Source of the DNA: an uncultured Verrucomicrobiota bacterium
GTDB taxonomy: Bacteria > Verrucomicrobiota > Verrucomicrobiia > Opitutales > Opitutaceae
DNA length: 40,828 nt
NCBI GenBank assembly: GCA_913058185.1
Contig: CAJXQX010000031.1
Location: forward strand, 1 to 40,828
Reading direction: 5' to 3'
The translations under genes and the position numbers were made by a program. Of this stretch, positions 28,431 to 40,206 are shown in pieces; positions within the stretch are counted from its first letter, which is position 1; each line of letters opens with the position of its first letter. The notes under the pieces were generated by a model. It worked only from the letters and a program-made list of their open reading frames with translations. It searched no databases and was not told the DNA's origin.

Positions 28431-29987
28431 CTAGATTTCATCTTCTTCCAAGGGCCGGTCGCCTTCAAAGGGTCCCCACATCACGTGTTCGGGGTAGTCT
28501 TTGTGCTTCTGATACTCAGCCGGGTCGTAGTTGGGATTCCGTTTGGGTATACGGGCGCCCACTTGCTTGAAATAACGCATCATCTCTGCGTAGAGCCGCT
28601 CGTGGACCTGCGGGTGTTGGCGGGCGATATTACGCACTTCTCCGGGATCATCCGAGAGATCGAACAGCATCGGAATGTCCGGGCTGGCGTAAAAGTGCAT
28701 CACTTTCTTATCGCCGGAAACGATGGCGGAGTGCGGCACTTCCTGACGGTAGTGGGGCACGTGAAAATAGAGGTAGCGATTCAGGAAAGCGTCATCTGGT
28801 TTCACGCCGCTCATGTAAGTCGCGAGACTAACGCCGTCGATATTCTGCAGCGCGTCCGGATCACCGCCGGCCCAATCGACAAAGGTCGGCAAGAAGTCGT
28901 AGTTGACCACGTTTCCCTCAAAAACCGCCCCGGCCTTAATCCCGGGGCCCTTCACAATCATCGGCACGCGGATGCCGCCCTGCCACGACCACCACTTATG
29001 GCCGTGATGGGGTTGCGTCATCTCAGGAGTCACGTGCAGGGCGTGATGGCGATAGCCGTTGTCCGCGACCATCACGACGTAGGTGTTTTCGGCGATACCG
29101 AGGGATTCGATCTTATCGAGCACCGCTCCGATTCGTCCGTCCAAATTCTCCCCCATCCCCAACCAGACCGCAGGGTCTTGTTTACGCGCCACGGTATCGG
29201 ATGCCTTACCTTCCCGCTGGTAGTAAGCCTGCACGAGAGGATGTTTCGCATATTTCTCGCGAGTCTGCGGTAGGCATTCCGGCCCCTCGTGCATCGCGTA
29301 ATGGGAAATCTGTAGGTAGAACGGGGTGTCTTTCTCGACCTGCTGTTCCATGAACCCGATAGCCTTATCAGTCATGCTGAACATGAGCTTGGGGTCACCC
29401 ATGTCGTCCGGCATGCGTCGGTCCTTCCCGATCGTATTACCCGGGTTGTTGTTGGTGTCTCCGTCGTGCAGAACATAACCAGCGTCACCCGGGTCACTAT
29501 ACACATGCCATTTCCCGATGTGCGCACTGGCGTAGCCTAACGGTTTGAGCGCATCCGGAATCGTGACCGCATCCGCATCGAGGGAGGAGTCAGAAATGGT
29601 GGGCACCAGAGGGAAGTGTTGGTAGTCCGCCCGCTCGTCATAATAATCGCCCTTCGTCTTACCAAGCACGAGCGTGTAGCCGGATCGCGGGCCTGACTGA
29701 CCCGTCTGGACGCTCGCCCGCGCAGGAGCACACTGGTGAGCACCGTAAGCGTTGGTGAACTTGGTGCCTTGGCGGGCCAACTTCTCGACATTCGGCATCT
29801 CGAGAATCGGCATAAAGGAGTTTTTCATCGCGTCATCCATCGGCACCGGTGACCCATTCCAGGCCCAGTCGTCGATATAGATCATAACGATATTGGGCTT
29901 CGTTTCGGCGCGGAGACTGACCATGGCCAGCAATAGCAACAGTGACAGGGCAAGGGGGGATTTGAGAATTCCAGCTCGAAGGGGCAT
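28431..29987 (-). CDS. sulfatase (S1 family, Cys-type), secreted
   Basis: 518 aa from ATG 29987 (a longer frame to 30047 would precede the signal peptide and is unlikely). Signal peptide about 1-27 ([17 protein letters not shown]). Metal site [13 protein letters not shown], formylglycine motif C86-A-P-A-R90 followed by [14 protein letters not shown], then [10 protein letters not shown] and [10 protein letters not shown]. The [13 protein letters not shown] segment and a C-terminal [18 protein letters not shown] tail set it apart from the other sulfatases here. A remnant of a paralogue with the same tail lies just downstream. Isolated gene, minus strand. Confidence 0.92.
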
Positions 29988-30212
29988 AATGGGAGTATTT
30001 GGATCGCTGAGATTCAACGTGTCCGAACGTGAACTCCTAGACCGCACGTAGTCTTACGGCCAACTCGAATCGACCGGCCTATAACTTGAATTTTTACCAA
30101 CGAACGCGAGCGGCCGGAGATTCGGATGGGGGTAGGGCATGGTTTGAGCCGCTCCTCAACGTGCGGTGATCGCGATTGCGGCCCAGCATCAACTCAAACA
30201 AACGTCGGCGTC

Positions 30213-31319
30213 CTAGGGAAGTTGGATCGTTTTTCCGGTTCGGGCAGATTCGCGGGCAGCCTCCATGATTTCCGTCGCGATCAGATTGTTGGCCAAAGAA
30301 GAAAGATCGTCCTTCGGTTCAATTTCGCCGCGAATGACCGCGGTGAAATACTCGATGGTATTGCGGTAGGGCGCCGACAGGGGCGTGGCCACCTTTTCAG
30401 TGGGAAGCTGGCCACGTTCCAATCGAATATTATAGCGCGTTTTATCGATCGTTTTTATGATCCCCGAACGACCGTAAACGTGGACGTCTTTTCGTGGAAA
30501 GGGCCAATCCCAGGAAGCCTGAATAATCCCTTGAACGCCGGGATACTCGAGAATGATCGTAGCATTGTCATCCACCTCGCCAAAGACCTCCGGTCGATTG
30601 GTCTGGAAGACCGCCGTGACCGATATCGGACGACGATTCCCCAGCAGCCAGGTTATGATATTCTGGCCATAGCACCCGAAGTCGGCGGATGCCCCGCCCC
30701 CGTTCAGGATCGGATCTGTCAGCCACCTGAAAAACTCTGATTCAGGATTTAATCCAGCCGGACCGGAATGCCCGAAGTGACTGATGATCTTGGTGATTTT
30801 TCCAAGTTGGTTTTCCTCGACCGCGAGACGGTAGGTTTCGCCGAGACTCGAATACCAAGTCGTTTCGAGATTCGTCAGAACGTGAATCTCATGCGATCGA
30901 GCCAGAGCGGCCATGCGATCGGCGCTGGCTTTGTCCACCGCCAAGGGCTTTTCGACAATTACGTGGATGCCTCGCGGGGCGCAGGCTTCGACGACTTTCA
31001 AGTGATCATAGGTGTTGGTGAATACCCAGGCCGCTTCTGGTGCGCGCTCATCGAGCAAAGTCTCCAAATCGTCTGCGAACAAACGGGGGTCGATATCGTA
31101 GCGATCCTGATACTTTTTAACGACCTTCGGGTCGGACTCGAAGATCCCGACGATATCCAAAGTGTCCGCATAGTCGCTTCGGAGTAGACCGTTCGCGTGA
31201 CCGTGAACGAGACCGACTACGACCACTTTGATTCTCGACTTGCTGGCGGCCTCCGCGGGTGAACCAAGCGTGCCCATGAGAAGACTGCCGATTAGGAAAA
31301 ATCGTGTAAGTATACACAT
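30213..31319 (-). CDS. Gfo/Idh/MocA-family oxidoreductase with Sec-type signal peptide
   Basis: 368 aa. The leader MCILTRFFLIGSLLMG, followed by GSPAEA, looks like a Sec signal with no twin arginine. Rossmann start VVVVGLVHGHANGLL, catalytic-type VEKPLAV near residue 121, and ADFGCYGQNIITWLL in the second motif, where the usual His is Tyr. Sec export of an NAD(P)-binding protein would require loading of the cofactor outside the cytoplasm, so either the leader is retained, the enzyme no longer uses a dinucleotide, or it is a divergent exported member. The gap on its upstream side is repeat-rich. Confidence 0.85.
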   Translation of the reverse strand: MCILTRFFLIGSLLMGTLGSPAEAASKSRIKVVVVGLVHGHANGLLRSDYADTLDIVGIFESDPKVVKKYQDRYDIDPRLFADDLETLLDERAPEAAWVFTNTYDHLKVVEACAPRGIHVIVEKPLAVDKASADRMAALARSHEIHVLTNLETTWYSSLGETYRLAVEENQLGKITKIISHFGHSGPAGLNPESEFFRWLTDPILNGGGASADFGCYGQNIITWLLGNRRPISVTAVFQTNRPEVFGEVDDNATIILEYPGVQGIIQASWDWPFPRKDVHVYGRSGIIKTIDKTRYNIRLERGQLPTEKVATPLSAPYRNTIEYFTAVIRGEIEPKDDLSSLANNLIATEIMEAARESARTGKTIQLP

Positions 31320-31439
31320 AGCAATAAACAGATCACTGCCGGCTTAGCGGAGCTCTTTTGCTCTCTAGGGTAGTGCATCAGCCGGACCCAAGACCCATTC
31401 CCTGATTGGTTCGGTATGCAATGCGAAACCGCCGGGCAC

Positions 31440-31829
31440 TCCGGGGGAGGGCTGGTTCTTCGCGGGTGTGAGTACGCGTGGAAGGGGTCGGGTCGTGACT
31501 GAATTGCTGAAGCAATGCGTCTACGATCCGACCCCGTTGGCCCTGATCGGTAGTTACATGCTGACGGTTCTTGTTACATGGGACTTCGCGCGTGGCGCGC
31601 TTGTCACTTGTTACTTCGCGGGCGTGAGCACGTGTGGAAGGGGGTACGTCGCAAAAAACGTATTACACTCCGTGTCATGTCGTCTTTTTGCGGCATGACC
31701 CCGTTGGGCGATCGGATGTTACATGCTGAAGGTTCTTGATACTTGATACCTGGAACTTGTCACTTCGCGTGCGTCAGCACGCGCGTGGTGCCGCTTGACC
31801 CTTTGGCAAGAACCCCAGACTCTGACGGC
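31440..31829. repeat. two tandem composite repeat units with exchanged hairpin cores
   Basis: Unit A (31461-31573): CGCGGGTGTGAGTACGCGTG then GAAGGGGT, hairpin core TCGGGTCGTGACTGAATTGC with its complement to 31530, then ACCCCGTTGG, TTACATGCTGACGGTTCTTG. Unit B (31618-31738): CGCGGGCGTGAGCACGTGTG then GAAGGGGG, a different hairpin core (GTCGCAAAAA pairing with TTTTTGCGGC, with an inner ACAC-TCC-GTGT), then ACCCCGTTGGGC, TTACATGCTGAAGGTTCTTG. A GTTACTTGTTACTTCG-type block separates them, and TCTGACGG (31821-31828) lies just before the DUF2911 ATG. A short ORF at 31468-31698 is repeat only. Confidence 0.8.
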
Positions 31830-32381
31830 ATGTTGAAGAAAATCCTGATGGGAATCGGAGCACTGGTTTTGCTCTTCGTTTTGTTTGTGGTTTATTCGTT
31901 GTTTATCGCGACGCCCAAGAGTCCACCCAACACCGCGGGTTTTAACCAGGATGGCCTCGAGATTCAAATCGCCTACAGTCAGCCCCATAAGAATGGACGT
32001 CTCATTTTCGGAGAAGAGTCCGAAGGTGCGTTACAGCCTTTCGGTAAATACTGGCGATTAGGGGCCAATGCGGCCACCGAGATTACGGTCAACCAAGATG
32101 TGTTATTTGACGGTCAGCCCCTTAAAGCAGGCACCTATCGGATGTATGCCGTGCCTGGAGAAACGTCATTCAAAGTTACCTTGAACAGTGAAGCGGGAGT
32201 CTTTCTTGCCGTGCGGGATCCCGATCCGGCCCTGGATCTATTTTCAGTCGAAACCATCGTAATCATGCAGACCTCCGTAACGGAAATGTTTACCATTAAC
32301 ATTAGTGAAATGAAAGGTGGAGCACGAGTAGGTTTTGCTTGGGATACCACCCGCTTTTCCATCCCAATCACGGTTGAATAA
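31830..32381 (+). CDS. DUF2911 protein with N-terminal membrane anchor
   Basis: 183 aa from ATG 31830 (the longer frame from 31743 is repeat). One transmembrane or uncleaved signal segment (about 4-27). The rest is the DUF2911 domain: IAYSQPHKNGRLIFG, QPFGKYWRLGANAATEI, PLKAGTYRMYAVPGE and a C-terminal strand pair. DUF2911 proteins are exported and of unknown function. A palindromic site lies 42 bp after the stop codon. Confidence 0.85.
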   Translation: MLKKILMGIGALVLLFVLFVVYSLFIATPKSPPNTAGFNQDGLEIQIAYSQPHKNGRLIFGEESEGALQPFGKYWRLGANAATEITVNQDVLFDGQPLKAGTYRMYAVPGETSFKVTLNSEAGVFLAVRDPDPALDLFSVETIVIMQTSVTEMFTINISEMKGGARVGFAWDTTRFSIPITVE

Positions 32382-32422
32382 GTAAGGCCTGAAAGGGATT
32401 GATGTTCACCCTGCAGCCCAAT

Positions 32423-32449
32423 GCCAATGTTCGTAGTACGAACATTGGC
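32423..32449. promoter_or_regulatory. 27-nt perfect palindrome, GCCAATGTTCGTA half-site, copy 1
   Basis: Left arm GCCAATGTTCGTA (32423-32435), central G, right arm TACGAACATTGGC (32437-32449). Same palindrome as at 34804-34830, with partial copies at 34325-34341 and 34407-34431. It lies between the DUF2911 and M23 genes. It could be an operator for a dimeric protein or an RNA hairpin. Confidence 0.85.
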
Positions 32450-32556
32450 CGGGAGGCTGGTGATTCGAGAGAGCTAGGCTGCTAGTCGCTGATTCCGTGG
32501 CGGGTGATCCAGGTTGCTAGTCTGGATGGAGGCGAGTTGAATGCCGGCATGAAGAT

Positions 32557-33327
32557 TTGCCCCGCCTTTATTTTTTGTTGGGAACCATGTCCGGAGCCGC
32601 GGCTGCTGAGACCGCAGATGCAGCCCCCGCGCAGAAACCAGATATGCTGACACCGGCTTATTATGCACCCGGCTCCGAGAATGCGTTAAAGGCGGAGGTT
32701 GATCGGTTTGTTTCCCACTCCCGTAAAGATCTCTTTCACCATCCCTTGCAGAATGAATCGGGCGAGATGCCTGCCTACAAAGTACATGACTGGGGTTCGT
32801 TCGGGGCGGGCAAGCCGCCGTGGCGAGAGGTCCAGCACCATGCCACCGCTGATTTCAAAGTGAACGATGGAGAAACCGACGTCGCTCTTTTTGCAGCACA
32901 CGATGGCCTTATAACTACTTTCCGCGATGTGCCCAAATACCGACACTACCTCGCCATCACCAAGGAAGTGGTGGATGACGATGGGAAAAGTCTCGGGAAA
33001 CTGGTCACGCTTTATGGACACATTGACCTGGACCTGAATGAAGCCGACGGGTTGTCACTCGATGGAAAACAGATCAAGAAAGGAGAACTGGTGTCACGCC
33101 ATCTCTACTCCGAAACCAAGGGAGGACCACATCTGCATTTCGAAGTGCGTTACTACCGGCCCGGAGATAACGGAGATGAATCTTTTTACGGACTCGCCAG
33201 ACCGGAATCCGACGATGCGGGCTTCACCAAGCCCTCGGCCGGCACCTGGACTTTGGGACATTGGAATCCTGATATTGGATACGGATACGGCGATCCGCAT
33301 AACCACGGTATTGTGGACCAGGAATGA
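32557..33327 (+). CDS. M23-like (LytM) metallopeptidase, exported
   Basis: 256 aa from TTG 32557. The peptidase ligands are present: HxxxD in HHATADF (about residue 97) and HxH in GGPHLHFEVRYY (about 200-211), with TLYGHIDLDL before. It should cut peptidoglycan cross-links or another peptide in the envelope. The N-terminus is doubtful: ATG 32549 opens a good signal peptide (MKICPAFIF), but it is in another frame. Adding one T to the six-T run at 32571-32576 would join it to LLGTMSGAAAAE. So either TTG is the start, or there is a one-base error or deletion in the homopolymer. The palindrome copy 1 lies about 100 bp upstream. Confidence 0.75.
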   Translation: MPRLYFLLGTMSGAAAAETADAAPAQKPDMLTPAYYAPGSENALKAEVDRFVSHSRKDLFHHPLQNESGEMPAYKVHDWGSFGAGKPPWREVQHHATADFKVNDGETDVALFAAHDGLITTFRDVPKYRHYLAITKEVVDDDGKSLGKLVTLYGHIDLDLNEADGLSLDGKQIKKGELVSRHLYSETKGGPHLHFEVRYYRPGDNGDESFYGLARPESDDAGFTKPSAGTWTLGHWNPDIGYGYGDPHNHGIVDQE

Positions 33328-33393
33328 AGCGGCCGTGGGGGCATTGAGACATTCCTGAATTTTTTGAGTTGAGGCTCCCCGTGGGGCTTGGGA

Positions 33394-33972
33394 TCACTCG
33401 GCCAAAGCCCGCGACTGGCGAGTGAGATGGAGGCAATAGATTAGAGGGATCGATCCGAAGATACCGAAGGCGCTGTCGACCATCGACCAGTAAACCGGAA
33501 TGCCCCGGATGTGACCGGCAATAAAGGCGACCGGAATAACCGCTGCGCAGATGCAGAGTCCCGTTTTGAGCACCCAGTCACTGTCGAGTGGACTCCACAA
33601 CGGGCGGATGAAAAAAGCCGCGCTCGCGAGGTGCCCAAATGCTAGCCAATCCGTGCCGTAACCAATAAACGGAAATTTCTCGTAAGTCTGCTCCAATCCA
33701 AAATTCACGTAAGCAATCCAATGGGCTAATCCGGTGAGTTCCTGATAGTTTGCTGGATCGGTTATGCCCAACCAGCCAGAGAGAATTCGAATTTCGACCA
33801 AGAGAGGAAACGCGGTGAGACCGCTAAAGACCAAGCCCGCCAAGAATAAAGCCAACGACACACGGTAACGGAACAGCAGTGCAGGAGTCATGCGTTGGAT
33901 CGTGGCGGCAATTACAGTCATGGTAAAGCCGAGGTTTGGGAGGGGCAAAACGACTAGGCGGGTCTGCAGCAT
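33394..33972 (-). CDS. four-helix integral membrane protein, unknown
   Basis: 192 aa; at least four hydrophobic stretches (VSLALFLAGLVFSGLTAFPLL, LAFGHLASAAFFI, GLCICAAVIPVAFIAGHI, SAFGIFGSIPLIYCLHL). ATG 33921 or 33972 could be the start. It has polar segments with conserved-looking HWIAYVNFGLEQTYEKFPFI between helices 1 and 2. I do not recognise the family. It sits between the M23-like gene and the HTH/palindrome region, transcribed in the opposite direction. Confidence 0.65.
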   Translation of the reverse strand: MLQTRLVVLPLPNLGFTMTVIAATIQRMTPALLFRYRVSLALFLAGLVFSGLTAFPLLVEIRILSGWLGITDPANYQELTGLAHWIAYVNFGLEQTYEKFPFIGYGTDWLAFGHLASAAFFIRPLWSPLDSDWVLKTGLCICAAVIPVAFIAGHIRGIPVYWSMVDSAFGIFGSIPLIYCLHLTRQSRALAE

Positions 33973-34114
33973 TCTTGAATCCTGACGGAACGAGGATCAC
34001 AACCGGCCGGTCGGGAATTTCGAGGCGAAGTGTTCACCGGCATTGCGTTGCGGTGAGAGCCCCGGTAACGTGAGTAGGTTCCGTAATCAAGCGGAGCGAC
34101 AACCAAGATTATAT

Positions 34115-34222
34115 ATGGGCAAATCACTCGACGCAAAAAAACAGACCCGCAAGGCTCCTCAAAAGACCGCTAAAGAGAAGAAAGCCGCCAAGAAACTGAA
34201 GAAGTCCGGTTCAGGGTTTTAG
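34115..34222 (+). CDS. 35-residue lysine-rich small protein
   Basis: ATG 34115 to TAG 34220-34222. The sequence (MGKSLDAKKQTRKAPQ, then TAKEKKAAKKLKKSGSGF) is about one third lysine, with net charge near +12. Similar MGKSxDxKKxxKK small proteins are, as I recall, annotated as hypotheticals in many bacteria. It could bind nucleic acid or another polyanion. Coding status is supported by the ATG, the biased composition and a clean stop, but it is short and unproven. Confidence 0.5.
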   Translation: MGKSLDAKKQTRKAPQKTAKEKKAAKKLKKSGSGF

Positions 34223-34324
34223 GAAAACTGAGAGGCGAAGTGAGTTGACTTACGCTGCGGTTGCTTAAGGCCGCATATCTCATCCCGACGCCTCAATTAC
34301 CCCCCACTGTATACCCCAACCCAA

Positions 34325-34341
34325 TGTTCGTATTACGAACA
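34325..34341. promoter_or_regulatory. palindrome, copy 2 (17-nt core)
   Basis: TGTTCGTA-T-TACGAACA, preceded by CCAA of the full half-site but lacking TTGG on the right. Lies 100 bp downstream of the HTH gene's stop codon. Confidence 0.75.
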
Positions 34342-34406
34342 AGTCCCTCAGGCCGTTGTCCTACCAATACCCTCGGGAGTTACACCCTGACTAAGTTGTC
34401 TCCATC

Positions 34407-34431
34407 CCCATGTTCGTATTACGAATATTGG
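34407..34431. promoter_or_regulatory. palindrome, copy 3 (imperfect)
   Basis: CCCATGTTCGTA-T-TACGAATATTGG: one mismatch in each arm against the consensus. It sits 9 bp downstream of the HTH gene's stop codon. Confidence 0.75.
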
Positions 34432-34440
34432 AACAGAGCC

Positions 34441-34803
34441 TCAGTCTTTGGATGGCTCGCGTTGTTTTTGGGCCAGCCAGATTAGTGTTTGGAGAGTTCG
34501 TTCCGCGTCGGGCATTGCCGATTGTGCATCGAAGTATTCCCCAATTCTGGCCCGGTGGAGCCCGAGTTCTTTGGCCATGATAGCCCGATCACCTCGGCGA
34601 CTCAGATGTGGTTTAACCAAGGAAACCATCGTGTTCCAAAGCTGGGTTTCAGCGCCCGGGCGTAGCGTGCTTCCTCGTCCTGATCGCGGTTTTCTCCGGT
34701 CTCTTCGTTTGAGGGCTGCTTTGGTTAACTCCCGTGCCGCGATTTCAAGAAGCTCTGCTCCTGCGACCAATTCCTCCACTCCAGGATACCGATAAGAACT
34801 CAT
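34441..34803 (-). CDS. small HTH protein bracketed by palindromes
   Basis: 120 aa. The C-terminal half holds a helix-turn-helix-like segment: DRAIMAKELGLHRARIGEYF followed by MPDAERTLQTLIWL, resembling Cro/CI-type DNA binders. The N-terminal half has a helix (EELVAGAELLEIAARELTKA) and a basic linker (KRRDRRKPRSGRG). The palindrome at 34804-34830 abuts the start codon, leaving no room for a normal Shine-Dalgarno, and further copies lie at 34407-34431 and 34325-34341. Autorepression by binding the palindrome is a natural hypothesis; a mobile-element function is another. Not a recognised family to me. Confidence 0.7.
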   Translation of the reverse strand: MSSYRYPGVEELVAGAELLEIAARELTKAALKRRDRRKPRSGRGSTLRPGAETQLWNTMVSLVKPHLSRRGDRAIMAKELGLHRARIGEYFDAQSAMPDAERTLQTLIWLAQKQREPSKD

Positions 34804-34830
34804 GCCAATGTTCGTAATACGAACATTGGC
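34804..34830. promoter_or_regulatory. 27-nt perfect palindrome, copy 4, abutting the HTH gene start
   Basis: GCCAATGTTCGTA, central A, TACGAACATTGGC. The reverse-strand HTH gene begins immediately beside it (start codon 34801-34803). Position and perfection make it the best candidate for an operator or RNA hairpin controlling that gene. Confidence 0.88.
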
Positions 34831-34925
34831 AGCGAAGCAAGATCGGTGGGGAGGCTAAGACGGTCGGGCGAGTGATCTTCATAGTGGTTTGATTGTTTGA
34901 GTTATCGGTGCTTTGCTCCCGGTCT

Positions 34926-35801
34926 ATGGCGTCTTCTTCTCAGCAAAAACGTATCGCGGTAACGGGTGGTAGTGGCATGGCGGGGCATTGGGTGGTGAAA
35001 CACCTCGTGGAACAGGGTTACGATGTGGTGAACCTTGATTTTCAGCTTCCCGCTGAACCGCACTGTCGCACGATCAAGACGGACCTCACGCACGCGGGGC
35101 AGGTCATCACGGCGCTGTCTCCGTTTGGCACCGGCAATCGTGCTCCTTATGATGGGGTCATCCATTTCGGGGCGATTCCGAATGCGCATCGTTGGCCCAA
35201 TGATGAGATTTTCCGGGTTAATACCACGTCGACTTACAACGTGCTCGAGGCTTGTGCGATCCTCGGGATCCAAAAGGTGGTTTTGGCGTCCAGCGAGTCG
35301 TCTTACGGACTGTGTTTCGCTTCGGATTTTTTTGAACCCAAATACTTGCCGGTCGACGAAGCCCATCCTCAATTGCCCGAAGATTCCTATGGCCTGACGA
35401 AGGTGCTCAATGAGGTGACGGCGGAGTCATTTCACCGCCGCACGGGCATGCAGATTGTTTCGTTCCGGTTGGGTAATATTCTCTCCCCAGAAATGCACGG
35501 TCCGGTGAAGGCCGGGTTTGCGGATACGTCTGCTCGACTGCGCAATTTGTGGTCTTACATCGACGCGCGCGATGTGGCAGAGGCGTGTCGCTTGGCCATC
35601 GAGACCGATGGACTGGGTTGCCAGCCGATGATCCTATCGGCCGATGATACCTCCTCAGATCGGCCCTCGGCGGAATTGATCGCGAAGCACTTGCCCGGAG
35701 TGACGGATCTGCGCAGTGAGTTTAGCGGCCGCGAAGGATTGCTCTCAAATCAACGCGTCCGCGAGGCCCTCGGCTGGAAGCAGAAATACTTCCTCCAGTA
35801 A
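34926..35801 (+). CDS. NAD-dependent epimerase/dehydratase (extended SDR)
   Basis: 291 aa from ATG 34926 (an in-frame start at 34893 is less likely). Rossmann motif TGGSGMAGHWVVKHL, VIHFGAIPN, catalytic SSESSYG plus YGLTK (Tyr-x3-Lys) near residue 160, and FRLGNILSP. It is a cytoplasmic nucleotide-sugar or sugar-acid SDR; relatives include UDP-glucose 4-epimerase-like and uronate dehydrogenase-like enzymes, and the substrate is uncertain. It could feed sugars released by the sulfatase clusters into metabolism. Confidence 0.88.
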   Translation: MASSSQQKRIAVTGGSGMAGHWVVKHLVEQGYDVVNLDFQLPAEPHCRTIKTDLTHAGQVITALSPFGTGNRAPYDGVIHFGAIPNAHRWPNDEIFRVNTTSTYNVLEACAILGIQKVVLASSESSYGLCFASDFFEPKYLPVDEAHPQLPEDSYGLTKVLNEVTAESFHRRTGMQIVSFRLGNILSPEMHGPVKAGFADTSARLRNLWSYIDARDVAEACRLAIETDGLGCQPMILSADDTSSDRPSAELIAKHLPGVTDLRSEFSGREGLLSNQRVREALGWKQKYFLQ

Positions 35802-35851
35802 CCCTGCCGCTCGTCATAGTCCCGCCGAACTTCAGTCTTAAATCGATCGAT

Positions 35852-37012
35852 TTAGAAACCGGTTGCCCATGCGCGTGCAGACTCATTCACGGCTGCGATG
35901 GCGGCGGTGGAGGGGGCGAGTTGGTTCTGGTTATCTTTGAGGCCGTAGCGGCGCGTTTTATTGCGCAGGTAGGCGCCGCAGAGATGGTAACCGATACATT
36001 GCGGCATGGCTTGAAGCGTTTGCATGATCTCGGCGTAGGCGGCCGGATCGATGTGCCGGGTGTCCTTGGGCGGCCAGCCGCTATGTTCCGTGGGATGCCA
36101 CCTAGCGTTGTCCGCGAGTAGGATGGGTTTTTCGGGGAAGAGGTCGGCCCATTGGCCGAGTCGTTTCTGCACGCCTTTGGCGTCGGCAAAGCATTGGAAT
36201 GAGTAGACGTCCACATAGGGCTGAGCAGCCGCCAGAACTTCTTCCGCGATGGGGCGGTCGGCGTCATAGCGATCACCCAGAATGAGGTGGTTGGGATCAT
36301 ACCGTTTGATGGCTTCAGTTGTGATCCGATAGTAGGCTGTGGCCAGGTCCCGGAGTTCGCGTTTGCCTGCCGGAGTTTTGAGCATGTCTGGATCGAAGAG
36401 CGGTGCTTTCCATGCGGTGGCGTCACTTGAATGAATCCAGGTGGGGCAATCGGTGAAGAAGTATCCGATCAAATTGGGATCATGCTTCATGCGCGCGCAT
36501 TGATCCCGCGCTACGTAGTCGCACCAATCGGCGAAGCCCTTTGACCGCAAATCGGGCAGGCGGGTTTTGACCTCCCACTGATGGGATTCAATGAAGGGAA
36601 GGAGGTGGCAATGGGGCATTTCCAGCCATTGATATTCTTCGAAAGTGAAGCTGCGGGAGTGACTCCGGTTCTGATCGTTCCATATCACCGCTTCTTGATT
36701 CCACCCAAGGGAATTGAAACCCCATTCGGTCAGATCTTCGCGAACTGTTTTCAGCCAACGCTGCATGCTGTTGCCAAATTCTTCGTTCCACACGTCACCG
36801 CTGTCGATGTAGCGCAGGGTGGCGGGATCGACGTGGTTCATACCGATTGACCAAAACGGGTTACCCTGTGGATCCTGCAGCCAATGTCGGCCGCCTTTCT
36901 GGATCACCGAAAAGAAGTGTTGGGAAGACGGTGTTTCTTTCGCCCAAACTTGGTTCAAGCCAGCTCCCGCGGCTCCCATGAGTCCTAGCTCCACAAAACG
37001 TCGTCGATTCAT
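35852..37012 (-). CDS. Tat-exported agarase-like / GH-A-type TIM-barrel protein
   Basis: 386 aa from ATG 37012 (a TTG at 37021 is an alternative). The leader NRRRFVELGLMGAAGAG is a twin-arginine signal. The fold looks like a glycoside hydrolase clan GH-A barrel, as annotated for agarase-like proteins: GNPFWSIGMNHVD near the N-terminus, IGYFFTDCPTW at strand 4, ILGDRYDADRP and KPILLADNARWHP later. Strand 4 normally ends in Asn-Glu and strand 7 in Glu; here Asp-Cys and Asp-Asn occupy those places, so catalysis may be altered. Probably cotranscribed with the upstream sulfatase (77 bp gap). Confidence 0.6.
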   Translation of the reverse strand: MNRRRFVELGLMGAAGAGLNQVWAKETPSSQHFFSVIQKGGRHWLQDPQGNPFWSIGMNHVDPATLRYIDSGDVWNEEFGNSMQRWLKTVREDLTEWGFNSLGWNQEAVIWNDQNRSHSRSFTFEEYQWLEMPHCHLLPFIESHQWEVKTRLPDLRSKGFADWCDYVARDQCARMKHDPNLIGYFFTDCPTWIHSSDATAWKAPLFDPDMLKTPAGKRELRDLATAYYRITTEAIKRYDPNHLILGDRYDADRPIAEEVLAAAQPYVDVYSFQCFADAKGVQKRLGQWADLFPEKPILLADNARWHPTEHSGWPPKDTRHIDPAAYAEIMQTLQAMPQCIGYHLCGAYLRNKTRRYGLKDNQNQLAPSTAAIAAVNESARAWATGF

Positions 37013-37089
37013 GGGGCCCAACTCTGGGGGCGGATCAGGATACGGAAAGCCTGAATCGAGAAAGAGTATGGGGTTGGGAGAGGGGGGGA

Positions 37090-38664
37090 TTACTTTATCC
37101 CACGCATTCCTTTGCCGTTTTGGATTTCGGCGAGGAGGGATTTGAGTTCGGCGACTTTGCTGGGGTGCTTCTTAATCAGGTTGGATTGTTCGCTGGGATC
37201 GGACCGTAGATTAAACAGGGCTTCTTCGACGAGGGGGGCTTCGGCGGGCCAGGTGGCTTGGGACTCTTCGACGTATTTCCAGTCGCCTTGGCGAAGGGCG
37301 AGGTCGAAGGACTCCTCTAGCATGGTGTGCACGCCGGTTTGATCGTGGCCGAGGATCGCGTGGAGTGCATTGCGACTATCGATGGCTTCGTCGTCAGCGA
37401 GTTTGACGGCGATTATGTCGGCCAGCGTCGCGAGGAGATCAACTTGGTTGACCGTGGCGGCGGAGGTGGAGCCGGGTTTGATCTTCCCGGGCCAACGCAC
37501 GATGAAGGGCACGCGGGTGCCGCCTTCGTAGATCTGATACTTGCCACCGCGATAGATGCCGGAGGCGTCGTGGCCGCGATCGGATTCTTCGAGTGAGCAG
37601 TGGACGGTCGTGCCGTCTTCGTAGCCGTCGTCGTAGACCGGGCCGTTGTCGCTGGAAAAGATCACGATGGTGTTTTCGGTGAGTCCATGGGCCTCGAGCG
37701 CGGTCATGATTTCACCGGTGGCCCAGTCGAACTGCACCATGGCGTCGCCACGGTAGCCGAGTTCTGATTTGCCTTTGAAGCGGGGGTGCGGGGCGCGGGG
37801 CACGTGGATGTCTTGGGACGAGAAGTAGAGGAAGAACGGTTCCTCCTTTTGGGCTTTGGCGGCGATGTAAGTTTTGGCCTCTTCGACGAAGCGATCGGAC
37901 ATGGTTTCGTCATCCCACAGGGCGGAATTGCCGCCGGCCATGTAACCCATGCGGCCGATGCCGTTGATCACGCTGTTGTTGTGACCATGGGAGCTTTGGT
38001 AGTAGGTCATCGCGGCGCGGTTGACGAGGCCGTCGGGATAGGCGGTGCTGCCCGGCCGATTCACCGAAGCCGCGGTGGTGCCGACGAAGAGCGGATCATT
38101 GGGGTTGAGATTTACGACGTGGTGGTTGCGCAGGTAGACGGAGGGCACGCGGTCGTTGGTGGAGGGCAGCAGGAAAGAGTAGTCGAAACCGAGCTCGAGT
38201 GGTCCGGGTTTCACGACGCCGTTCCAGTTGGTCTTCACGTCGGTTTGACCAATGCCGAGATGCCACTTGCCGACGACGGCGGTGTCATAACCGGCACGTT
38301 TGAAGAGTTTGGGCAGCGTCAGGATGTCGGTGGGAATGATGAGTGGCGCATCGGGCGGCAGCACGCGGGCGGCGTAGCGAAACGCGTGGATACCGGTGAG
38401 GAGGGAAAAGCGGGACGGGGTGCAGGTCGATGCGGTGCAGTGGCCGTCGGTGAAGTTGATGCCCTGCGCGGCGAGTCGGTCGATGTTGGGGGTCGGGATC
38501 ATCGTCGATCCGTTTACACCGACATCACCGTAGCCGACATCGTCACCGTAGATGATGACCACGTTGGGAAGATCGGAAGCGGAGGACGCGACCGCGAGGC
38601 CGAGGGATAGGCTGGTGACGAGAGCGACTACGCGGCGGATGAGGTTGGGGCGGTGGGATGGCAT
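37090..38664 (-). CDS. sulfatase (S1 family, Cys-type), secreted
   Basis: 524 aa with signal peptide about 1-30. VVIIYGDDVGYGDVGVNG metal site, formylglycine motif C81-T-P-S-R85 followed by FSLLTGIHAFRY, VVGKWHLGIGQ, and IFSSDNGPVYDDGYEDG. The sequence resembles arylsulfatase A-like bacterial enzymes. It reads toward the agarase-like gene, consistent with joint action on a sulfated galactan or similar polymer, though this is only suggested by the neighbour. Confidence 0.93.
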   Translation of the reverse strand: MPSHRPNLIRRVVALVTSLSLGLAVASSASDLPNVVIIYGDDVGYGDVGVNGSTMIPTPNIDRLAAQGINFTDGHCTASTCTPSRFSLLTGIHAFRYAARVLPPDAPLIIPTDILTLPKLFKRAGYDTAVVGKWHLGIGQTDVKTNWNGVVKPGPLELGFDYSFLLPSTNDRVPSVYLRNHHVVNLNPNDPLFVGTTAASVNRPGSTAYPDGLVNRAAMTYYQSSHGHNNSVINGIGRMGYMAGGNSALWDDETMSDRFVEEAKTYIAAKAQKEEPFFLYFSSQDIHVPRAPHPRFKGKSELGYRGDAMVQFDWATGEIMTALEAHGLTENTIVIFSSDNGPVYDDGYEDGTTVHCSLEESDRGHDASGIYRGGKYQIYEGGTRVPFIVRWPGKIKPGSTSAATVNQVDLLATLADIIAVKLADDEAIDSRNALHAILGHDQTGVHTMLEESFDLALRQGDWKYVEESQATWPAEAPLVEEALFNLRSDPSEQSNLIKKHPSKVAELKSLLAEIQNGKGMRGIK

Positions 38665-38699
38665 GGAATTAGGGAGGATAAGGAAGGGGACGCGTTAAA

Positions 38700-38790
38700 A
38701 GGGATGACTGAATTGCGGAGAGTCGAGAACGAGAACCAGAAAGGGAAAGAGTAGGAGTCGGAGAACGATAAAGATAAAGAGGGCGAATGG
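38700..38790. repeat. purine-tract repeat between two sulfatases
   Basis: GATGACTGAATTGCGGAG then AGTCGAGAACGAGAACCAGA and AAGGGAAAGAGTAGG. Same module as at 7571, 13444 and 14341. No gene. Confidence 0.65.
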
Positions 38791-38799
38791 GGGGGCTTG

Positions 38800-40206
38800 C
38801 TAGCCTTGGGTTTCGGAGGGGATCGCGAAGGATTGGGCTTCGGTGTCGTGTGATTCGGTGATCCATTCTTGCAGGTAAGTGCGGTGTTGATTGAGCACGT
38901 TCTGGTGCGCAGAGGAATTGACGAGATTGATCAATTCGCCGGGGTCTTCCTGTAGGTCTACGAGGGATTCGCGGCGCGTGCCTTTGACGTAGACGCAGTA
39001 TTTGTAGCGAGATGATCGCAGCATGCGACCGCTCTGGTTCTCGGCTACGATGTAGGGACGTTTGGCTTTGGTGGTTTGGCCTTCAGCGAGAGGACGAAGA
39101 CTACGGCCCAGCCAAAAATCGGGAGCGGAGAGATTGGCGTAGTCGGCCAGAGTGGGGAGCACATCGAGACCATTGGAAACGAGGTCATGGTCGTTCACCA
39201 CGCCGGGGGGGATGACCCCCTTGTATTGCATGATGAAAGGGACGCCGGCGGAGTTTTGATAGAAGACGCCTTTGGAAGCGAGTTGGTGGCTGCCGTCCAT
39301 GTCGCCGTGATCGCTGGTGAAGATGACGAGGGTGTTCTCTGCGAGACCGTGGGTTTCGAGGGCATTCAGGAGTTGGCCGATCTGGGTATCGACGCGTTCG
39401 GTGAGGCGGCAATAGATCCAGCGATAGTTGCGCCAATCGCGTTCCGAGTAGTCATCACGCATCAGGATGGCTGGAGTGACGGAAGTCGTCTGCATGTCGG
39501 CCGAGACGCCTTCGGGTTCTAGGTTGGGAATCGCACTGTTGGCGGGGAGAGGGGGGAGTTGGTCTTCGGGTAGGGCTTCAGCTTGTCGGTAGAGTTCATT
39601 AACGAGAGCCTTGCTTTTGGGGGACTCTTCGCGAGCCGCATAGGCGTAGCAGATGTCGTGAGGGTTGATGAACGACGCCACGGCGAAGAAGGGTTTATCG
39701 CGATCACGCGTCATGAACTCGATGCAGGCGCCGGGCAGTTCTTCGCGTTGATCACGGAAGAACTCGTCGTAGCCCGCTTGGGACGGAGTCAACTCTGGGG
39801 CAAGGTGGGTTTTGCCGCCATAGAACGTGTCGTAGCCGCCGCGCTTGATCAGATTTCCCATCGAGTTTTCGATGACGTCGCTCGGAATGGTTGCTTTCAT
39901 TTGGTTCTGAAAAACCCCGAAACGACCGGGCATCATCCCGGTGGCCATTGAGATACGACTGGGGACGCAGACGGGATTGGTGACGTAGGCGTTGGTGAAG
40001 CGAATGCCGGCCTGGGCCATGCCATCGAGGGCGTGAGTCTTTAGGTAGGGATTCCCGGCGCTCGATAGCATGTTGGCATGATGCTGATCGGTGAGGATGA
40101 AGAGGATGTTCACCTCTTTGGCGGGTGCGAGTGACGCGGTGAGCATCGCGCCGATGAGGACAAAGAGACGAGAAAGTGCTAGGCGGGGTAAACGGGGCAC
40201 GGACAT
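38800..40206 (-). CDS. sulfatase (S1 family, Cys-type), secreted
   Basis: 468 aa with signal peptide about 1-29. Its metal site is NILFILTDQHHANML (TDQ type), and the formylglycine motif is C80-V-P-S-R84 followed by ISMATGMMPGRFG. Substrate-loop YGGKTHLAPEL and IFTSDHGDMDGSHQL complete the core. This TDQ subtype differs from the TDD type of the other sulfatases here, suggesting a different linkage. The upstream neighbour is divergent (sialidase-like, 40353). Confidence 0.93.
   Translation of the reverse strand: MSVPRLPRLALSRLFVLIGAMLTASLAPAKEVNILFILTDQHHANMLSSAGNPYLKTHALDGMAQAGIRFTNAYVTNPVCVPSRISMATGMMPGRFGVFQNQMKATIPSDVIENSMGNLIKRGGYDTFYGGKTHLAPELTPSQAGYDEFFRDQREELPGACIEFMTRDRDKPFFAVASFINPHDICYAYAAREESPKSKALVNELYRQAEALPEDQLPPLPANSAIPNLEPEGVSADMQTTSVTPAILMRDDYSERDWRNYRWIYCRLTERVDTQIGQLLNALETHGLAENTLVIFTSDHGDMDGSHQLASKGVFYQNSAGVPFIMQYKGVIPPGVVNDHDLVSNGLDVLPTLADYANLSAPDFWLGRSLRPLAEGQTTKAKRPYIVAENQSGRMLRSSRYKYCVYVKGTRRESLVDLQEDPGELINLVNSSAHQNVLNQHRTYLQEWITESHDTEAQSFAIPSETQG

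Follow-up and report, generated by a model that had tools for sequence, protein, structure and literature searches.

Small DNA-binding proteins such as the C proteins of restriction-modification systems, HipB and phage Cro/CI autoregulate. Among dispersed repeats, the repetitive extragenic palindromic (REP) sequences have RAYT genes as partners, and excerpts of PMC2817692 describe an open reading frame (ORF) flanked by two REPs, coevolution of gene and repeat, a gene-repeat correlation and a RAYT gene that evolves fast relative to its neighbours. REP doublets are the theme of PMC3116915 in its excerpted text, and excerpts of PMC3733652 report GTAG repeats in Opitutus terrae as well as CGTC-tagged and untagged palindromic dispersed repeats without a dedicated transposase. 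Here we describe a helix-turn-helix (HTH) gene and a family of palindromes in a 40,828-nucleotide stretch of DNA from an uncultured Verrucomicrobiota bacterium of the Opitutaceae (contig CAJXQX010000031.1; this whole stretch is called the window). The gene and its flanking palindromes probably form one unit of a repeat system with two parts, found in Opitutaceae-like bacteria: dispersed palindromes, and a dedicated small Cro-like binding protein that serves them and is encoded between two copies of the palindrome. The palindrome/protein system is real and recurrent, and comparison of homologous loci leaves its REP-like status well supported.

In the window, the system comprises the following features:
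32423..32449, no strand: solo perfect 27-nt palindrome, GCCAATGTTCGTAGTACGAACATTGGC, between two co-oriented ORFs
34320..34346, no strand: second degenerate palindrome copy further downstream of the HTH unit, 86 bp from the 34406 copy and forming a doublet with it
34406..34432 (start approximate), no strand: degenerate palindrome copy, downstream flank of the HTH unit, 8 bp beyond the stop codon
34441..34803, minus strand: 120-amino-acid HTH gene for a probable Cro/lambda-repressor-like DNA-binding protein (from ORF, family alignment, AlphaFold model and fold matches), with the recognition helix GLHRARIGEYF
34804..34830, no strand: perfect 27-nt palindrome, GCCAATGTTCGTAATACGAACATTGGC, adjoining the HTH start codon; proposed operator and core promoter (from sequence and family-wide promoter-like layout)
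34814..34819, minus strand: TATTAC in the palindrome centre, proposed -10 element (from the family-wide pattern)
34835..34840, minus strand: TTGCTT, proposed -35 element with a short, 15-nt spacer (from the family TTG pattern)

The first-pass annotation of this DNA had reported perfect palindromes at 32423 and 34804, both of which are exact, and degenerate copies at 34325 and 34407, both of which exist, with starts at 34320 (the inner core being at 34325) and about 34406. As it stated, the ATG of the HTH ORF, from 34803, directly abuts the 34804 palindrome; the downstream copy lies 8 bp past the stop, not 9. The half-site alone is not significantly enriched in the window (14 occurrences at up to 3 mismatches versus 9.8 expected; 13 of 100 shuffles reach 14). 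With up to 2 mismatches allowed, the whole palindrome, AATGTTCGTANTACGAACATT, has 11 sites in the 4.09-Mb genome of the window and its reversed control none, a frequency beyond chance; the genome-wide count proposed earlier thus did find the palindrome elsewhere in the genome. Among 57 genomes the palindrome is present in 7, its reversed control again in none.

Homologous genes are each matched to a palindrome of their own. The flanks of the first homologues carried long, odd-centred palindromes that differed between homologues and were alike on both sides of one gene. We then used a set of 99 distinct homologues (110 minus 11 duplicates), in which L052 and L073 are anchored on the wrong ORF stretch, and a set of 118 anchored on the best-scoring stretch, from which duplicates and L312, a distant, unrelated-looking match, were dropped. 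Among the 99, a TANTA-centred palindrome was found upstream of 66, downstream of 60, on both sides of 54 and on either side of 72. The same 7-nt half-site stood left and right in 53 of the 54 two-sided units, compared to a mean of 11.0 and a maximum of 20 with shuffled partners (1000 trials), and there was little besides the HTH gene between the two palindromes. Furthermore, distinct GTDB loci held 101 TANTA palindromes in 60.5 kb around units but only 6 in 425 kb elsewhere, and 81 of the 118 homologues had such a palindrome.

In these 81 TANTA units the type of recognition helix follows the half-site. Helices of xRQR or xKQR type go with GTCAC- and GTAAC-type sites, xRQ[QTAS] with GTCAA/GTCAG/GTCTA sites, [PS]PQR or PAPR with TTCAC/TTCAT/TTTAC sites, and H[RKP][AGS]R, the window included, with [TA]GT[TC]CGTA sites. 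As two-by-two counts, a first contrast (R/K with G, P/A with T) gave 64/0/0/5 and a second (R with C/T, Q/T/A/S with A/G) 61/0/0/8, each in 69 units, while a third (H with [TA]GT[TC]C) gave 9/0/0/72 in all 81 units.

The copies across genomes also track the cognate gene. For three cores in 57 genomes, copies (counts that take in the palindromes of the units themselves) were present in every one of the 10 genome-core combinations that have a cognate unit and in 6 of the 161 that have none. At up to 1 mismatch, TTGTCACCTANTAGGTGACAA occurred at 27 places in G001, 11 in G003, 13 in G016 and 13 in G024, and at none in the other 53 genomes, and the TTGTCACCTA core was confined to exactly the four genomes whose examined unit has that core (0 of 53 others). 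AGTAACCTANTAGGTTACT was found in G000, G007 and G028, which have a matching unit, and also in G005 and G010, in which no matching unit was identified. In G028, all five sites have the same CTATTGGG/CCCAATAG variant as that genome's own unit, and in G016 the sites agree with the variant of the local unit in 7 of 13 cases. Dispersed copies number about 3-27 per genome and core. Palindrome and protein thus vary together, and one genome can therefore hold several palindrome/protein pairs; more than one kind of unit does occur in one genome.

Two further families were seen in passing. The single-contig genome G010 has 14 AGTAACCTA-type copies, several in doublets spaced about 45 bp, and no identified matching unit, making them an orphan family. 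In the window's genome, L024 9770-9796 (G000:C48) is a GTCACGTA-type palindrome, a core that none of the four units read there has.

Three lines of comparison, namely matching flanking cores, covariation of helix with half-site and copies that go with the cognate gene, strongly support recognition of the palindrome by its own HTH protein, as first proposed from the window alone. Covariation, fold and symmetry suggest that the protein would bind as a dimer via its recognition helix.

We also analyzed how the upstream palindrome is placed relative to the gene. An in-frame ATG follows it in 76 of 77 usable units, and 32 of the 76 have this ATG at a distance of 9-16 nt from the centre. TTG was present at -26 to -21 from the centre in 25 of the 77 upstream palindromes compared to 3 on the other strand, and in 1, 3 and 4 units in three control intervals further upstream. 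When the upstream palindromes were split by whether a start codon lay at +5 to +22, those with one had the TTG in 24 of 43 cases and those without in 1 of 34; for downstream palindromes the figure was 6 of 67 (other strand 3) and for other copies of two cores 1 of 70 (other strand 1). TTG with a TATTAC/TAATAG centre resembles a -35/-10 promoter whose transcription start lies at or just before the ATG, and the window has this layout, with TTGCTT at 34840-34835, TATTAC at 34819-34814 and the ATG from 34803. In many units the upstream palindrome would thus double as promoter, with the TANTA centre as -10 box and the TTG box upstream, and transcription starting at or just before the ATG would yield a leaderless or near-leaderless message. 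Since the upstream palindrome is often promoter-like where the start codon is close, autorepression by the HTH protein, which the first-pass annotation had also put forward, is likely: binding would cover the -10 box and so shut off the protein's own gene.

A Pfam search with the window's HTH protein matched no family. Homologues are present in 21 of the 57 relative genomes searched, counting the window's own, which has 4 copies. A model from an alignment of 31 homologues (A1) matched 25 of 387 genomes of the phylum: 18 strong best matches (E 5e-29 or better) all fell in the window's own, Opitutaceae-like family (f1), 19 other sampled genomes of which gave no A1 match, and the remaining 7, all outside f1, were weak (6.6e-9 or worse). 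A GTDB contig scan with a closer nine-sequence alignment yielded 78 loci, all titled Verrucomicrobia/Verrucomicrobiota or Opitutaceae, Opitutae or their genera. The conserved family sequence in A1 approximates RRGxTLRPGxxTPLWN, then the helix-turn-helix, then MPDAERTLxLLxWL. At E<=0.1 the 31 A1 members gave weak Pfam matches to YdaS (26 of 31, best 2.7e-5) and HTH_3 (13 of 31, best 5.1e-5), and Y1_Tnp was not among the 14 Pfam families matched; weak PHROG matches are to phage repressors. Neither Pfam nor NCBIfam gave a transposase family for the window protein, and weak NCBIfam matches in one or two members (IS3, 0.059; Mpi recombinase, 0.0078) fit the shared HTH.

AlphaFold models the window protein as five helices with a mean pLDDT (predicted local distance difference test score) of 76.5, and of 86-93 in 10-residue blocks over residues 51-110. 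Structural matches comprise XRE, Cro, HipB, HigA and C proteins, lambda and P22 repressors and POU/HNF-1 domains, and the lists say little on residues 1-43. Because no match reaches Foldseek E 0.001 and VIA Z is mostly 5-8, a range that by the tool's own warning may reflect a common arrangement, a Cro/lambda-repressor-like fold is probable rather than certain. The ratio of nonsynonymous to synonymous substitution rates (dN/dS) was 0.06-0.19 in 6 of the 9 pairs giving a ratio and 0.30-0.51 in the three pairs of the L137 group, a group without clear flanking palindromes; these ratios indicate that purifying selection acts on the protein. The subfamily L137, L138, L140 and L141 occupies one conserved locus, and in L138/L141 the region about 280-700 bp upstream contains repeated sequence. 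Clues to function from domain fusions were rejected: the long open frames fetched resemble stop-free upstream sequence, and no fusion partner was apparent at 22 further loci.

Where the copies lie was read from 76 window-core sites in seven genomes, 8 of which belong to three matching units, with a rough ORF caller. Gaps between tandem genes held 21 sites, divergent gaps 12 and convergent gaps 12, while 30 lay inside ORFs and 1 at an edge. This 21:12:12 split is the random ratio, so the copies between genes show no promoter preference. Outside the core, the arms are specific to each site yet complementary: at arm position 14 pairing occurred in 32 of 59 sites versus 15.5 expected, with all four pair types, and the excess faded past position 15. 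Such complementarity could be due to hairpin selection or to quasi-palindrome correction. A role as intrinsic terminators was rejected, as TTTT followed the arm in 3 of 140 cases versus 4 in the control stretch. At L183, L186 and L194 (G002, G005 and G004), the palindrome lies within a seemingly identical coding context, perhaps a coding coincidence; L183 and L186 have flanking genes with 67% identity.

Comparison of close genomes reveals gain and loss of copies. The TTGTCACGTA core occurs at 23, 16, 15 and 9 places in four of them (reversed control 0), and of 41 loci compared all except L236 and L237 had a counterpart, mostly at 85-98% identity. Two palindromes 45 bp apart at L250 (G058) correspond to one hybrid palindrome at L263 (G059), with the junction inside the core, and a single palindrome at L258 (G059) corresponds to arrays of 105-bp units at L240 (G060) and L229 (G057). 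Doublets and arrays grow or shrink from species to species, the breakpoints falling inside the core of the palindrome; the junctions are observed and suggest an agent acting there. Arrays of 105-bp and 77-bp units at L229, L240, L225 and L261 vary in size between close species. The L236 copy (G057) is part of a block of about 140 bp, in place of which G058 has about 21 bp and G059 some other sequence, with no clean target duplication. L228 was discarded as an empty-site query, its G059 counterpart having a slightly altered centre rather than an empty site.

We compared surroundings for those unit pairs in which each side had 1.4 kb or more of flank; the pairs are not independent. At 85% nucleotide identity or more, 8 of 8 pairs shared surroundings, whereas at 75-85% 14 of 23 shared none in the stretch read, and below 75% most shared none; genome divergence alone could explain part of this mismatch. 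The 20-kb surroundings of the nearest same-genus units (G001, G002) lack four of the window's neighbouring proteins. In G001 the unit comes after a gene whose orthologue in G002 precedes a palindrome doublet instead; this doublet and the G002 unit are 6.6 kb apart, and synteny is one-sided. L055 and L113 occupy a shared locus with flanks that are 81-86% identical; their genes have 69% identity and their cores differ. Whole-unit mobility, as first envisaged for the window, is suggested by these comparisons: related units often sit in different surroundings, but a clean empty site, a target duplication and a catalytic domain were not found. Presence or absence of the window's block, first proposed for comparison between strains, was examined in relatives and gave no clean empty site either. 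Of 37 other genomes searched, G014 and G008 alone have homologues of its 192-amino-acid neighbour, and the loci of about 3.5 kb there match neither the window's HTH protein nor the remaining neighbours.

Several observations weigh against a two-part repeat system as we propose it. Palindromes of TANTA type are lacking at 37 of the 118 homologues, among them L050, L058, L059, L060 and L067 with a variant centre, and at some, e.g. L111, L112, L128 and L309, no palindrome was found. The helix contrasts and the TTG interval were picked after inspecting tables. When the helix is left out of the tree, one change is enough for the first contrast and the second takes four, with two independent pairs on well-supported branches, both concordant; the recognition code is consistent, if only modestly replicated by descent. 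Outside the counted sets, L145 has P in the helix yet keeps G, and L094 has an H-type helix and a weak palindrome, TTTACTTA, from a laxer scan only. In the core assignment, 10 of 42 detected units were left unread. Of the refuting outcomes named in the first-pass annotation, none open to sequence comparison occurred outright. The expected association between palindrome and homologues held in every combination with a unit, but the window's core, matched by a unit in G000, G001 and G002, also occurs in G003, G004, G005 and G010 without a detected one, i.e. in 4 of its 7 genomes. The 30 sites within rough ORFs include some true coding sequence besides spurious frames, the window's -35/-10 spacer of only 15 nt is short, and no target-site duplication was seen in the indels read, among which there was no clean single insertion.

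Other explanations account for parts of these data. The protein might be an ordinary autoregulated repressor with a regulon, its solo palindromes being operators of other genes; its probable Cro-like fold, the operator-like palindromes and the autorepressor layout fit this, and for a few sites the genes on either side are orthologous between two species. However, few genes beside palindromes recur between species, arms outlast the core and arrays expand, and with TTG absent from all but 1 of 70 other copies and gaps splitting at the random ratio (rough ORF caller), the other copies do not form a promoter regulon. A regulon is therefore unlikely, and repression of other genes through solo copies, as suggested at first, finds no backing here; the other copies would instead be REP-like repeats in gaps whatever the gene orientation, not promoters of that type. 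Movement in trans by a Y1/IS200-like transposase, with the HTH protein only regulating or protecting REP-type repeats, would suit the self-complementary arms and the REP-like doublets and arrays, and the window's genome has six Y1_Tnp matches (L016-L021), one with an in-frame TGA. Yet the 4-10 kb read at each of these six loci contained no such palindromes, the kind of palindrome goes with the HTH gene and there is no GTAG tag, which makes this quite unlikely.

Much less probable is a chromosome-organising, partition-like system in which the protein would tie dispersed sites together, as a sequence-specific nucleoid protein does. Dispersal of about 3-27 sites per genome irrespective of gene orientation and purifying selection on the protein would agree with it, but presence is patchy (21 of 57 genomes), one genome can hold several kinds of unit, and arrays differ between close species. 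We give very little credence to a degenerate prophage repressor or antitoxin with leftover operators: this is the direction in which the weak YdaS, HTH_3 and PHROG matches and the HipB, HigA and phage repressor folds point, whereas two-sided units hold little beyond one gene and a pattern-based scan of 2.9 million viral contigs gave 57 pattern matches and 0 confirmed relatives.

The two-part repeat system may be taken a step further, tentatively and as less likely than not, to a self-propagating palindrome family, whose only dedicated protein, a non-catalytic Cro-like binder, would recruit or shelter host replication/repair to copy, expand and keep the palindromes, while the promoter within the palindrome limits its dose. 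If true, the family would act as a genetic parasite or symbiont of REP type that does its work with no transposase of its own. The 81 natural protein/palindrome units are material to decode Cro-like specificity, and the family is a system for asking how palindromes multiply when they have no transposase of their own.

Elsewhere in the window, a possible, very lysine-rich ORF of about 35 amino acids (MGKSLDAKKQTRKAPQKT..., 34115-34222, plus strand) was noted by eye downstream of the HTH unit, several ORFs in 28431-40206 were judged by eye from their translations to be sulfatase-like, and an Rfam search of the window gave no match.

Compared with XRE autoregulators, the system shares a probable fold and a palindrome over its own proposed promoter, but differs in the second palindrome beyond the stop, the dispersed REP-like copies and the variable complementary arms. 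The LexA box of Verrucomicrobia is TGTTC-N4-GAACA, whereas the arrangement here is TGTTC-N7-GAACA with a core that changes with the HTH protein. With regard to insertion sequences and transposons, no transposase catalytic domain was recognised in the window protein in Pfam or NCBIfam. GTAG, the tag of the repeats reported for Opitutus terrae in the excerpts of PMC3733652, stood on 1 of 118 sides of 59 window-core sites at 9-30 nt from the centre and on 1 at 31-52 nt; given those reported repeats, both repeat kinds may coexist in this bacterial family. For CGTC the counts at the same sites were 11 versus 13; CGTC-tagged and untagged repeats are likewise palindromic and dispersed, while here there is a candidate dedicated binding protein and a core matched to the protein variant. 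A literature search of titles and abstract starts, with most subscription papers and bioRxiv outside it, found no description of this palindrome/Cro-like protein pairing. There is a likeness to REP/RAYT systems (REPtrons, REP doublets forming hairpins, or REPINs, and bacterial interspersed mosaic elements, or BIMEs), with a gene between two copies of a dispersed palindrome (54 of 99 on both sides, 72 on either), protein-palindrome coevolution, dispersed copies, doublets, arrays and copies that correlate with the cognate gene (10 of 10 versus 6 of 161). The REP-like arrangement first read from the window is thus found across the family, and all four RAYT traits in the excerpts of PMC2817692 have a parallel here, with fast gene change seen in single loci only. 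Unlike RAYTs, the protein is a 120-amino-acid Cro-like binder with no Y1/HUH (PF01797) match, and unlike REPs, of which there are over 100 copies, the palindromes are near-perfect and odd-centred, far fewer per genome and core, and often promoter-like upstream of the gene. Altogether, the system behaves like a REP system combined with an autorepressor, outside the RAYT family.

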